Below are positions 1,376-6,911 of a stretch of DNA of 35,714 bases, in pieces. Numbering within the stretch: the first letter of the stretch is position 1; the number at the start of each line of letters is the position of its first letter. The notes under the pieces were generated by a model. The model saw only the letters and a program-made list of their open reading frames with translations. It was not told where the DNA came from and did no database searches. Origin of the DNA: Bacteroidota bacterium. GTDB lineage: Bacteria > Bacteroidota > Bacteroidia > Flavobacteriales_C > GCA-002722245. The stretch spans positions 1 through 35,714 of the forward strand of contig JAPLEZ010000138.1 in NCBI GenBank assembly GCA_026390935.1, read 5' to 3'. Both the position numbers and the translations under genes were made by a program.

Positions 1376-1416
1376 AATATAATGCAATTTTGATTTCTTT
1401 CGAAATCCTTGTAAAG

Positions 1417-1503
1417 CGGAGAGGGGGGGATTCGAACCCCCGATAGGATTGCTCCTACGACAGTTTAGCAAACTGTTGGTTTCAGCCACTCACCCACCTC
1501 TCC
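1417..1503 (-). tRNA. tRNA-Ser (anticodon GCU)
   Basis: On the minus strand the RNA runs from GGAGAGG (acceptor 5' arm, 1503-1497) to CCTCTCC plus a G discriminator (1417). The anticodon stem-loop is ACAGT-TTGCTAA-ACTGT, giving GCU, which reads AGC and AGU serine codons. A long variable arm (TAGGAGCAATCCTA) identifies a class II tRNA such as tRNA-Ser, and the T arm GGGGG-TTCGAAT-CCCCC is clear. The 3' CCA is not encoded. The gene borders a patch of toxin-antitoxin and remnant DNA, but I found no copy of its 3' end elsewhere that would mark an integration site. Confidence 0.95.
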
Positions 1504-1638
1504 AAAATGTTCAATATTTGCGATCTCTACCACAAACATTATTAAAGAACAGGGGGCAAATATAAGCCTTCAATTTAGAAACAACAATAGTTTAAAGAAT
1601 TCTGTGCGTTTTTTTTGAAATTAAGCATAGATTAATCA

Positions 1639-3174
1639 TTATTTATACAGCTGAGCGTATTGTTTTTTATACTCTTGAGTAATGGAGGAATTGCTTACAA
1701 CACAATGACACCATGTGTTTATGTCGATAAGAAACTGATCCCAGCACATGTCAAGTGGAATTTTTTCTTCTCTTATTTTTTCGGCTGTTAATTTTGCAAT
1801 TTGTTTCTTTTCTGCCAAAGGATTTTTTACAATGACTTCGACAAACGCTTTTCTCTGATAAAAGTTGAGCGACTCTTTTTCTAAAAGATTTTTGTATGAT
1901 TTAGCGATATAAAAAGCAGCTTCTGAGTTCCCCATTTCAAGATGCGACAGGATTTTTAGTAAGTAAAATTCTGAGTCGGCGTAGGGGTGCGTATGCTTTT
2001 CTGTATATAATTCAATGGCGTTCAAGGCTTTGATGGCTTCGGGAAATTGTTGAAGTAAAAAGTGACTCACGCTCTTATTAATATAAAAAATCATCAGATT
2101 GTCATTTAGAGCATCATCGATGATCTTTCCTTTTTTGATGTATTGCTCGCAGACCTGAAGTCCTTTCTCAAATTCCCCTAACAGCAGAAGTGAGCCAAAG
2201 TGTAAATCACTCAAACAACTTTCGGCAAGGATATAAGCATGATTTTCAGGGTCGCCAATTTCATTTTTGAATTCCTCCAATCCTTTGATACAACTTGTAA
2301 ATAATTTTTTGTTGTAAAATCGAGATGCTGCAACTCCTAAATTTACAATTAGTCCTACAATGACTTCTCGTGTAAAAGAAGTGTTTTGCTTTTTATCTAA
2401 GCAATATTTCAATAAAATTTCCCCTTCTTTATTGAATAACTCAGTTTCTACCTTTATATAGTGGTGGTAAGTGATTACGTTTTGATGCAACAGCGCTATT
2501 TTTTTGCTTGCCAGATAGAGTAGGCGCTGGTAGTTTTCGGAAGTAACCAATTGTTCATACTTATCTAGAACTACTTGTTTGTCGCCTTTTCCCATCAAAT
2601 GCGCATATAAAAATGATTTGAATGCAGCATCGGTAAAAAAGGCTACCGCTTCGTCCATGTATTTGTAGTGCTTTTCCTCTTCCTGACTTAGTTTAAATAA
2701 AATGTCATTTTGAATTGGATTTACATGATAAGATGGCCAAATCCTTCTTTCAATATACAATGCTTCTATCAGAGGAAAGTAAATTTCGTTTTCCAGCGCC
2801 GTTTTTTTTGTTCGCTTAATTATTGAAAGTGCTTCTTTATAGAGTCCTTTATCTTTTAAGATATCGGCATTCTGAATTTGTGTTTTCATACTATAGCTTT
2901 CTTTCTTTTCAGAATAGTAGTTTCTAAGCGCTTTTAATATGAGTTCGAAAAGGTAGTTTTTAGTTTTAGGCAGGTGATTAGCGAATTTTTCCTTTCGAAC
3001 CAGTTTTTCAATTTTCTCCTTACTATAAATTTTTACGTTGTTGTATATGTCGAAAAGCCTTATTCCATTGGCATCTTCCTTCACATGAAGTGCGGCAAAT
3101 TTCTTTACATATCCTTTTTCAGATTTATCTAACGAGTGTATCAATCGGTGCAATTTATCTTCAGATTCGCTCAT
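1639..3174 (-). CDS. Helical-repeat (TPR-like) hypothetical protein
   Basis: A 511-residue protein without signal peptide or membrane segment. The N-terminus (LHRLIHSLDKSEKGYVKKFA, then a segment predicted to pack as helices up to about residue 100) resembles a group of long cytoplasmic hypothetical proteins common in Bacteroidota. The rest is a succession of amphipathic helices in the spacing of degenerate tetratricopeptide repeats (for example around residues 110-135, 320-345, 360-390 and 400-425), ending in a polar helix. No catalytic motif is visible. A role as a protein-interaction scaffold is the family-level guess; the substrate is unknown. It is followed by 135 bases and then the oppositely read end of tRNA-Ser. 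Confidence 0.75.
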   Translation of the reverse strand: MSESEDKLHRLIHSLDKSEKGYVKKFAALHVKEDANGIRLFDIYNNVKIYSKEKIEKLVRKEKFANHLPKTKNYLFELILKALRNYYSEKKESYSMKTQIQNADILKDKGLYKEALSIIKRTKKTALENEIYFPLIEALYIERRIWPSYHVNPIQNDILFKLSQEEEKHYKYMDEAVAFFTDAAFKSFLYAHLMGKGDKQVVLDKYEQLVTSENYQRLLYLASKKIALLHQNVITYHHYIKVETELFNKEGEILLKYCLDKKQNTSFTREVIVGLIVNLGVAASRFYNKKLFTSCIKGLEEFKNEIGDPENHAYILAESCLSDLHFGSLLLLGEFEKGLQVCEQYIKKGKIIDDALNDNLMIFYINKSVSHFLLQQFPEAIKALNAIELYTEKHTHPYADSEFYLLKILSHLEMGNSEAAFYIAKSYKNLLEKESLNFYQRKAFVEVIVKNPLAEKKQIAKLTAEKIREEKIPLDMCWDQFLIDINTWCHCVVSNSSITQEYKKQYAQLYK

Positions 3175-3353
3175 CGGGATGTAATTTGAGTTGATTTTAA
3201 AAAATTAAATATCAAATACTTACGTGAAAAAATCAAGTCAGAAAAAGGAAATTATCAAACTTATAATGTTTTGCCGCTGCCTTTACTAAGTTAATTTTAC
3301 TCCATCAAGAAGGCGTTCTTTATATTACAACTGGTTCATAGAAAGTAAATTAT

Positions 3354-3482
3354 GGTTCGCGCAGAACAGTACATTTCAATTATGGTGCCTGTACAATTTT
3401 AATGCTAATTTACCCGTTAGTTTATCCCTAGTTTTCTGCGTGAGCTTTGTTCCTCCATCCCCAAATGGAGGAACTTTTTTTT
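3354..3482 (+). ncRNA. Candidate small structured RNA with intrinsic terminator
   Basis: An outer helix pairs GGTTCGCGCAGAA (3354-3366) with TTCTGCGTGAGCT (3434-3446): 13 consecutive pairs, three of them G-U. Inside it are a 5-bp hairpin GTACA (3369-3373) / TGTAC (3390-3394) and a small CTAA (3405-3408) / TTAG (3417-3420) hairpin, giving a three-way junction. A strong terminator follows at 3449-3482. Both flanking genes read the other way and no plus-strand ORF precedes it, so a free-standing RNA is more likely than a leader. I cannot match it to 6S, SRP, tmRNA, RNase P or a riboswitch class. No perfect TAnnTTTG box is visible upstream, so the 5' end is undetermined. Confidence 0.4.
3449..3482 (+). 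terminator. Strong plus-strand terminator with no gene before it
   Basis: Perfect 10-bp stem GTTCCTCCAT (3449-3458) / ATGGAGGAAC (3465-3474) with a 6-base loop and eight T after it. No matching T run exists on the minus strand, so it is directional and orphan with respect to coding genes. Confidence 0.8.
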
Positions 3483-3509: not shown

Positions 3510-4322
3510 TTATTTTATAGATGAACAATTCAGGACTTTTATCGGTGAATCCCCTTGACTCTGATAGATCACAACTAGGTATTCTAAATTACTTTTGTTG
3601 ATGTTTCCAGGCACAGTTAATTGAATGGGTACTTTATAAGTGATGCCGATGACAGGCGATGAGCTTATGCTTTGACCAAAGTCACCATTTCCAGCCGCCA
3701 CCAAAACATGATGGTGGGAGTATGAAAAAGAAGTATCGGAAGGAGTAACACGTTGAGGAGCTACAACGGTGTTTTCTACTAAATAAACAGCGAGAAATAC
3801 TGGCGCATTTACAGAAGAATAAAACTCAACTTTCGCATATATATTCACTGATGATCCAAATTCTTCTTTTGCTAATCCGATACCACAAACAGAAGGGGCT
3901 TTTTGAGTGGAATCAATCGCGTGCTTCCATGTGCTATAAGTTTTTTGATGATTGGTCATTCCTTCAAAAATCGACGGATAGGAAGAAAATGTTTTATTGC
4001 CGTTATTATCAAATAATCGCAAAAAACTTTCAGCTGTCGATGTGAATAGGGTAGTGTCAAAAAATACGTCGGGATACAATGTCATTCCATAAAGTCTGCT
4101 TGCATTTACACCGTTCATATTTCCTGAAAGCGCTTTATTGAAAATCGTATCGTGTGCGTCATCGCTGAAATAATTCCCTTGATCAGCCAACATAAAAATG
4201 AAGGAGTTATGTTGATTAGAAACTGTGATGTTATCAAAAGCTTTTTGGGTATTGTCAACTCTACATCCGAAATAAAGACCAATGGTCAGTAATAATAGTA
4301 ATGACAATAACTTTCTTTTCAT
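3510..4322 (-). CDS. Omp28-like outer-membrane lipoprotein
   Basis: A 270-residue lipoprotein. The signal sequence MKRKLLSLLLLLTIGLYFGC places the lipidated Cys at residue 20. The middle and C-terminal half (residues about 150-270) have the Omp28-like pattern: a beta-rich domain with FLAVYLVENTVVAPQ, then a short loop and SYSHHHVLVAAGNGDFG, followed by strands ending near the C-terminus. Omp28-family proteins are surface or outer-membrane lipoproteins of Bacteroidota; their function is poorly defined. It appears monocistronic. A near-match to the TAnnTTTG box (TACATTTA) lies on minus at 4354-4347. The family assignment is from remembered motif similarity. Confidence 0.7.
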   Translation of the reverse strand: MKRKLLSLLLLLTIGLYFGCRVDNTQKAFDNITVSNQHNSFIFMLADQGNYFSDDAHDTIFNKALSGNMNGVNASRLYGMTLYPDVFFDTTLFTSTAESFLRLFDNNGNKTFSSYPSIFEGMTNHQKTYSTWKHAIDSTQKAPSVCGIGLAKEEFGSSVNIYAKVEFYSSVNAPVFLAVYLVENTVVAPQRVTPSDTSFSYSHHHVLVAAGNGDFGQSISSSPVIGITYKVPIQLTVPGNINKSNLEYLVVIYQSQGDSPIKVLNCSSIK

Positions 4323-4445: not shown

Positions 4446-6911
4446 ATGAGAATTGTCATATCCATATTATTTGTTTGTTTCGCTCAATTCGGCTGGGCGC
4501 AAAACAATGGTAAAAGTATTGAGGATCTGAAGAAGGATCTCACATTAAAAATCCCCGACAGTAATCGCTTGCAAGTATATCTAGATTTATCCACAGCTTT
4601 TAGAAATACTGACGCTGATTCTGCTTTACATTATGCTACTTTGGCCTATCAAGGTTCTACTGCAAGAGAAAATAGTAAATATAGAGCTGAAGCACTGTTG
4701 TGCCAGGGAGTTGCAGTAAATAAAAAGGGGGATTTCAAGGAAGCCTTAAAATATTTCACTTCTGCACTGAAGTACAGTACATCTGTGAGTTATGAAAAAG
4801 GCGTTGCATCAGCCTATCGTTCAATGGGAATTTGTTATTATCAAATGGCCGATTTTAGTTTAGCTATTGAGTTTTATCAAAAATCTATTTCCATTTCGAA
4901 ACAAATGGGCGACAAAGAAAATATCGGTAAAACAACAGGTCAAATTGCAAGTATTTACCACTCCAAAGGCGATTATGACAAAGCCTTGGAATACTATAAT
5001 CGAGCTCTCGAGATTGCCGACGAAACACACAATATGGAGCAGGTTGCCCTATTAGTTAATAAAATAGGCAATGTCTTTAACGATAAAGGAGAAGTTATTC
5101 AAGCGCTTAATTATTATGAAAAGTCTTTGGAGATATATCAAAAGAAAGGGGACACTAGAGGTGAATCCACTGCACATGCTAATATTGGTAATGTGTTTTT
5201 TAAACAAGGAAAATATGTTGCTGCTTTAGATGCACATTACAAGTCCCTAAGAATTAACGAGAAAATGGGCAATAAGTACGGCATAGCCAATTCATATCTT
5301 ACTTTGGGCTTAATTTACAGTGAACAAAAAGACAATGTAAAGGCTTTAGATTTTTACAACAAAGCGATGAAGCTAGTGGAGAAAATGGGGGATAAGGCAC
5401 TTCTTTCTACTACAATCAGAAACATTGGACAGATTTACCAAAACATGGAGCAAAAAGTAGAGGCTCAGGAGTATTTTTATAAAGGCTTAGCAATTTCAAA
5501 AGAAATTGGGGATCTGTCAGGTGTTGCCGAATCACTTAATTTATTAGGGAATTTCTATTTGAATGACAGTAATTTAGTGAAGGCTCAAGAGCTCTTTCAG
5601 CAATATTTGCAGCGTTCATTAGAGTTAGGAGACAAAAACGGTATTGCCTCAGCCTATTCAAATGTTGGTAATGTTTATTTGCGACTTAATAATACAAAGG
5701 AAGCCATATTGAATTGCAGAAATGGTTATAACCTTTCTAAAGAATATGGTGGAAATTCTATTAAAAAAGCGGTTTGTGAGTGTTTGTACAAAGCATTTGA
5801 AACTCAAGGAAAATCAGATTCAGCTTATCATTACTTCAAATTATTTGATACTTATCGCGATAGTTTAATCAATAATGAAAGCTCAAAATTGATGGCCCGT
5901 CATGAAATTCAGTACGAATTCGATAAAAAATTCCTTTCCGATAGTATAGCTGGCGCGCAACAAAAAGAATTGGATGAGTTGCGCTACCACGATGAATCTC
6001 GCAAACAAAAGCTATACACATATATGAGCTTGGGTGCCTTCGTCATCACCTTAATTTTAGCCATAGGTATTTTCACCAACTTCCGGTTAAAGCAACAAAG
6101 CAACCGAATTATCAAAAAACAAAAAGAGCTGGTAGAAGAGAAGAATGCTGAAATTATGTCATCTATCCGTTATGCCCAAAGGATTCAAAATGCCTTACTA
6201 ACAAGTGATGAACATTGGGATGCCATCAGTCACGATCATTTCGTTTACTTAAAACCTAAAGATGTTGTGAGTGGCGACTTCTATTGGGCGCATTATTTTA
6301 GCGATAACAAAGCGATTTGGGTGGCAGCCGATTGCACCGGTCATGGAGTTCCAGGTGCTTTCATGAGTATGTTGGGAATTGGTTTTCTCAACGAAATTGT
6401 TGTGGAGGACAACATTGTTTATCCTAATGAAATTTTGGACAGGCTACGTACAAAAATCATCAATGCTTTGCGTCAAAAGGGTTTACAACATCAACAAATG
6501 GATGGAATGGATTTGGCTCTTTGTCTATGGGATAAAAACACCAATAAACTCATGTACTCTGGGGCAAATAATCCTTTGTGGTTAATGAGGGCAGGGGAGT
6601 TAGTGGAAATAAAACCCGACAAGCAACCTGTTGGTTTCTTGTTGGATGACACTTCAGAGCCATTTACGATTCATGAAATTCAATTGCAAAAAGGCGATAT
6701 AGTTTACACTTTTACCGACGGATACACAGATCAGTTCGGTGGAAAAGATGGAAAAAAATTCAAGTATAAGAGATTTAGAGATTTGCTAAAATCAATTCAA
6801 TCAAAAGCCATGTATCAGCAAAAAGAATCCATTGAAGAGGCTTTTGAAGCATGGAAAGGTGAGCATGAGCAAGTGGATGACGTGTGTATCATTGGTGTGA
6901 AAGTTGTATAA
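4446..6911 (+). CDS. Membrane TPR protein with SpoIIE/PP2C Ser/Thr phosphatase domain
   Basis: An 821-residue sensor-phosphatase. Signal peptide 1-18 (cut after WAQ) leads to about ten tetratricopeptide repeats (residues ~45-470), which would lie in the periplasm. One transmembrane helix follows at ~524-544, then a short coiled coil (550-575) and a cytoplasmic SpoIIE-type phosphatase domain (~580-821). Metal-binding acidic residues expected for PPM phosphatases are visible: D611 in SGDFYW, D629 in AADCTGHG, D759 in FTDG and D811/D812 in QVDDVCIIG. Such proteins dephosphorylate anti-sigma-antagonist-like partners, but no STAS or kinase gene is in the window. The next gene follows closely. The domains look intact and active. 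Confidence 0.9.
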   Translation: MRIVISILFVCFAQFGWAQNNGKSIEDLKKDLTLKIPDSNRLQVYLDLSTAFRNTDADSALHYATLAYQGSTARENSKYRAEALLCQGVAVNKKGDFKEALKYFTSALKYSTSVSYEKGVASAYRSMGICYYQMADFSLAIEFYQKSISISKQMGDKENIGKTTGQIASIYHSKGDYDKALEYYNRALEIADETHNMEQVALLVNKIGNVFNDKGEVIQALNYYEKSLEIYQKKGDTRGESTAHANIGNVFFKQGKYVAALDAHYKSLRINEKMGNKYGIANSYLTLGLIYSEQKDNVKALDFYNKAMKLVEKMGDKALLSTTIRNIGQIYQNMEQKVEAQEYFYKGLAISKEIGDLSGVAESLNLLGNFYLNDSNLVKAQELFQQYLQRSLELGDKNGIASAYSNVGNVYLRLNNTKEAILNCRNGYNLSKEYGGNSIKKAVCECLYKAFETQGKSDSAYHYFKLFDTYRDSLINNESSKLMARHEIQYEFDKKFLSDSIAGAQQKELDELRYHDESRKQKLYTYMSLGAFVITLILAIGIFTNFRLKQQSNRIIKKQKELVEEKNAEIMSSIRYAQRIQNALLTSDEHWDAISHDHFVYLKPKDVVSGDFYWAHYFSDNKAIWVAADCTGHGVPGAFMSMLGIGFLNEIVVEDNIVYPNEILDRLRTKIINALRQKGLQHQQMDGMDLALCLWDKNTNKLMYSGANNPLWLMRAGELVEIKPDKQPVGFLLDDTSEPFTIHEIQLQKGDIVYTFTDGYTDQFGGKDGKKFKYKRFRDLLKSIQSKAMYQQKESIEEAFEAWKGEHEQVDDVCIIGVKVV

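Follow-up and report, generated by a model that had tools for sequence, protein, structure and literature searches.

A conserved structured RNA, probably a new small RNA family, beside omp28 in uncultured Flavobacteriales

In a 3.76-Mb draft genome from the Flavobacteriales (G000), a plus-strand region at positions 3354-3482 of one contig is very probably a real, conserved non-coding RNA gene. The window is that whole contig (contig 68, 35,714 nt), and the region lies between two minus-strand ORFs on its ORF list (1639-3174 and 3510-4322), as the initial annotation had said; the next sizeable plus-strand gene begins only at 4446. On comparative grounds the RNA is a new, genus-restricted family of small RNAs (sRNAs) of a known kind, whose structure is supported by the comparison. 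The proposal of a new small RNA thus gains from homologues in two relatives (G002 and G003), from compensatory changes, from conservation that exceeds that of the flanking genes, and from the lack of a downstream plus-strand gene. Such a family would be new in uncultured Flavobacteriales, whose small RNAs are little studied, and its invariant loops would offer a direct handle for target tests.

Fold and comparative support

The anatomy agrees exactly with the earlier description: a 13-bp helix closes a region holding two further hairpins, and a perfect 10-bp stem with eight T forms the terminator (Table 1). The minimum free energy of 3354-3482 is -40.4 kcal/mol against -21.1 +/- 3.0 kcal/mol for dinucleotide shuffles (z = -6.4; 0/200), and with the terminator removed the fold still stands at z = -3.4 (0/200 shuffles). 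The reverse strand of the region folds less stably, at -32.5, and a T-run follows the stem on the plus strand only, with none on the reverse strand. The intrinsic terminator belongs to the RNA strand, and the unit contains no conserved ORF. A small protein was rejected: the only small frame, with an ATG at 3352, lacks the start in G002 and carries a 1-nt insertion there.

Table 1. Features of the RNA locus, and related loci in other genomes and contigs
Feature	Coordinates	Strand	Remarks
511-aa protein gene	1639..3174	-	divergent from the RNA; accompanies it in G000, G002, G003
Upstream block	3302..3352	+	51 nt; 51/51 identical to G002, identity drops farther upstream
Inverted repeat AAGAA-N4-TTCTT	3307-3320		5 bp; in upstream block
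-7-like box TAAATTAT	3346-3353		poor match, 2 mismatches to flavobacterial TAnnTTTG
Closing helix, 5' arm	3354..3366	+	from the fold; compensatory and consistent changes; transcript start probably here or nearby
Hairpin 1	3369..3394	+	stem 3369-3372/3391-3394; stem invariant where present, hence no covariation support
Loop motif AUGGUGCCUG	3382-3391	+	in hairpin 1; invariant in G000, G002, G003
Hairpin 2	3404..3421	+	stem 3404-3409/3416-3421; one G-U to A-U in G002, pairing kept
ACCCG	3412-3416	+	in hairpin 2 loop; identical in G000, G002, G003
Closing helix, 3' arm	3434..3446	+	13 pairs with 3354-3366, three G-U, enclosing exactly 67 nt
Intrinsic terminator	3449..3482	+	stem 3449-3458/3465-3474, perfect 10 bp; 6-nt loop; T8 at 3475-3482; two two-sided changes with G003
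omp28 (Omp28-family lipoprotein gene)	3510..4322	-	convergent with the RNA; Pfam PF11551 Omp28, E = 1.3e-14
Sister-genus hairpin-terminator	G006:C8:92591-92663 (L122)
Sister-genus hairpin-terminator	G009:C14:69421-69493 (L121)
Sister-genus hairpin-terminator	G007:C8:13361-13434 (L123)
Sister-genus hairpin-terminator	G005:C92:7020-7087 (L125)
6S-like gene	G000:C69:30099-30257 (L143)		relatives: L113, L114, L116, L145

Between G000 and G002, a 181-nt block is 96% identical, whereas the flanking proteins share only 71% and 57% amino-acid identity; the adjoining intergenic DNA is 74% identical just upstream of the block and 38% just downstream, where the stretch from the terminator to the omp28 stop is poorly conserved. 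By this comparison, the conservation of the RNA exceeds that of both flanking protein genes, and strong purifying selection on the region is shown at the level of sequence. Since it is better conserved than the proteins around it, the RNA probably does something that the cell needs where it is present. Three substitutions between the two genomes fall inside helices, all from G-U to A-U with pairing kept. The G-U pairs had been taken as a sign of selection for structure; in this comparison the G-U sites change one-sidedly and neutrally with respect to pairing.

An independent homologue comes from G003. A covariance model built from G000 and G002 only, with G003 left out (R1), finds G003:C17:80688-80797 with 37.4 bits and a genome-wide E of 1.3e-4. 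As in G002, this copy occupies the same place and has the same orientation; the two genes beside it are homologous to those of the window, at a protein identity of 36-37%. The closing helix of this copy, a perfect run of 10 bp, has several base pairs that differ. In a three-genome alignment that offers few independent changes and in which a structure-fitted model placed the G003 row, pairing holds in 88/88 countable helix cells. Two-sided changes affect five pairs, of which three belong to the closing helix and two to the terminator. When the pairing is shifted by 1-3 columns, pairing falls to 35-49% and no two-sided change is left. The compensatory changes expected of a structured RNA are thus found in relatives, and the structure of the closing helix and terminator is well supported by comparison. 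Both elements are kept in G003, while its inner hairpins are mostly gapped and not clearly formed, and no two-sided change falls in them anywhere in the three-genome alignment. Therefore the three-way junction of the initial annotation stands as a model of the RNA in G000 and G002, the only genomes in which the two inner hairpins are supported.

Start site, neighbours and distribution

The block of perfect identity just upstream of the RNA is probably promoter or regulatory DNA, and this reading places the start of transcription near 3354. No convincing promoter for the RNA was identified in the upstream sequence; the -7 box of flavobacteria has the consensus TAnnTTTG (PMC9723704), and the candidate in Table 1 resembles it poorly. 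The block could instead be the 5' part of the transcript, but by itself it hardly folds (-2.4 kcal/mol). On another contig of the same genome (G000:C119, L146 1571-1600, minus strand), some 25 nt match the upstream block and the helix foot almost completely (TTCATAGAAAGNAAATTANGGTTCG). This partial match adjoins a tRNA and the tRNA's terminator; with an E of 0.004 it may be due to chance, and its meaning is doubtful.

Among the ten genomes of the family set, the RNA is present in G000, G002 and G003 only, in each case divergent from the gene for the 511-aa protein and convergent with omp28. In the window, the omp28 stop codon lies 28 nt beyond the RNA terminator. It is absent from G001 and G004, two members of the same genus. 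A weak model match in G004 lies inside an aspartyl-tRNA synthetase gene and was rejected as false. Model R3 yields no believable additional copy over the 395 genomes of the class set, and its matches outside the genus, which have only the terminator hairpin in common with the RNA, were rejected. The motif pair GGTGCCTGT...TTTACCC was likewise discarded as a marker, its matches outside the RNA-bearing genomes among the 395 being chance-like and without the closing helix. A pattern scan of the GTDB-wide collection (84,980 species) gave only two real records, both from the sister genomes, and no copy was found in viral contigs.

In G004 (L186 2356-3407, corresponding to 1416-3482 of the window), neither the RNA nor the gene for the 511-aa protein is present between omp28 and a tRNA-Ser(gct) with the same anticodon; at this site the two are thus gained or lost as a pair. 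The site that they occupy may be a variable cassette. At the G004 locus, a recombinase-like ORF ends over the tRNA-Ser. No Pfam domain was found in the 511-aa protein, and its N-terminus matches the NCBIfam BT2802 family only weakly (63 bits, cut-off 550). The protein is a member of a large paralogous family, which reaches 38 matches in the genome G014 and whose conserved N-terminal ~140 aa show the same weak similarity to BT2802; no RNA of this kind lies upstream of the paralogues at other sites. Farther off in the window, at 252-921 on the plus strand, an ORF of 112 aa and one of 113 aa that overlaps it resemble a MazE/MazF-type toxin-antitoxin pair, judged by eye only.

In four genomes of the sister genus (G005, G006, G007 and G009), a shorter hairpin of 70-75 nt with a terminator lies beside omp28, in the same position and orientation. 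Its stem is kept through paired changes, and its loop holds UGUGCC or AUGCC; from its sequence it is a candidate second small RNA. This hairpin is located 3' of omp28 and is preceded by a promoter-like pair GTAAC...GTTTG. Models R1 and R3 miss the sister-genus loci, and R2, the model of the sister-genus type, misses G000; matches of R2 outside the sister genus look like ordinary terminators and were rejected. Common descent of the two RNAs is possible, and it is unproven because their similarity does not exceed chance: local alignments of the window RNA with the sister-genus RNAs score no better than shuffles (p 0.08-0.58). It is doubtful, though conceivable, that both derive from one family-wide RNA beside omp28 whose structure was rebuilt and of which only a GUGCC-type loop was kept. 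If that were true, the conserved loop would be the working part, and the scaffold would have been rapidly remodelled around a fixed recognition loop.

Possible modes of action

The explanation that we favour as a whole, with somewhat more confidence than doubt, is an independent structured sRNA of ~130 nt with its own promoter and terminator that would act in trans by base-pairing with mRNAs. Transcription would begin from a promoter in 3302-3352, at or close to the base of the closing helix (about 3354), and would end at the intrinsic terminator at 3482. The closing helix would protect the ends of the RNA and hold up its single-stranded segments, notably AUGGUGCCUG and ACCCG. Once exposed, these two segments would most likely pair with mRNAs made elsewhere, changing the translation or stability of the targets. 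A base-pairing regulatory RNA is the most likely reading because of the class of the RNA and its anatomy of exposed loops; in this it is like the independent sRNAs mapped in Flavobacterium psychrophilum. That trans base-pairing is the main mechanism is judged an even chance. Exact matches to the complement of the 10-nt loop motif were sought in the five genomes of the genus; all sites lie within coding sequence or on its opposite strand, and none of them marks a conserved target near a start codon. Apart from the RNA itself, the RNA-bearing genomes share one such site, which occurs as well in G004, a genome lacking the RNA.

Two other modes of action appear unlikely. The RNA might act in cis on the convergent omp28, whose read-through mRNA would span the complement of the entire RNA, with pairing or transcriptional collision adjusting omp28. 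The short distance between the terminator and the omp28 stop and the convergent arrangement in all three genomes are consistent with this, as is the presence at the same site in the four sister-genus genomes of a hairpin and terminator that look unrelated or diverged. But the strongest conservation falls in the loops and the upstream block and not at the end that faces omp28, and a perfect antisense RNA would need no compensated secondary structure. Protein binding in place of mRNA pairing is also improbable. The RNA would then titrate a protein or serve as a scaffold, by way of its paired loops (GGUG/UACC) or of a dimer formed by its near self-complementary GGUGCC loop. Both loop sequences are invariant in the three genomes, and the search with the exact loop motif gave no conserved mRNA complement, as this reading would allow; no known protein-binding RNA model matches, however, and the loop-loop pairing lacks covariation.

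Comparison with known RNAs

No Rfam family matches the RNA at curated or permissive thresholds. The best weak scores are those of the PyrR binding site (RF00515, 17.8 bits against a cut-off of 54) and of anti-hemB (RF02837, 15.6 bits against 49.5); both are at chance level, and their likeness to the RNA is that of the terminator hairpin alone. The initial annotation had also considered a divergent member of a known RNA, an idea that finds no support here: no Rfam family fits, and for 6S RNA, the obvious candidate, these genomes have a 6S-like gene at another site.

That the RNA should itself be a divergent 6S RNA is very improbable. Its size and closed-helix shape are alike, and Rfam 6S (RF00013) has no match anywhere in the family. 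It likewise resembles 6S-Flavo (RF01685) and Bacteroidales-1 6S (RF01693) in length and in its long closing helix, but neither model matches the region even at E <= 10, and two genus members do without the orphan RNA. All five genus members (5/5), by contrast, carry a separate conserved 6S-like locus, and this gene together with the lack of any 6S model match argues that the orphan RNA is not 6S. The separate locus is syntenic in the three genomes compared, and across the genus its copies are 75-90% identical to that of G003. It scores weakly with 6S-Flavo in G001, G003 and G004 (E 0.001-0.07) and with 6S-Bacteroidales in G000 (E 0.22). Judged from its sequence, it is likely to be a divergent 6S RNA below the Rfam 6S cut-offs, worth adding to the 6S family. 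Hardly credible, too, are a decayed gene and a plus-strand gene's riboswitch, attenuator or leader: a structure followed by a terminator does resemble an attenuator, but no plus-strand gene follows the RNA, omp28 runs towards it in each of the three genomes, and the region is conserved more strongly than its functional neighbours.

The preferred reading, an independent base-pairing sRNA, does not make the RNA a system of a new kind. Flavobacteria commonly have independent sRNAs with strong folds (PMC9723704). The Rfp set of Flavobacterium, of which Rfp18 is an example (PMC9723704), comes from a distant family. As described, the Rfp RNAs are like the window RNA in being short, non-coding, strongly folded, intergenic and conserved among near relatives, within the Flavobacteriales. 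One stem-loop of Rfp18 is predicted to make the pairing with its targets, and deletion of Rfp18 in Flavobacterium psychrophilum has a phenotype on the predicted target mRNAs (PMC9723704).
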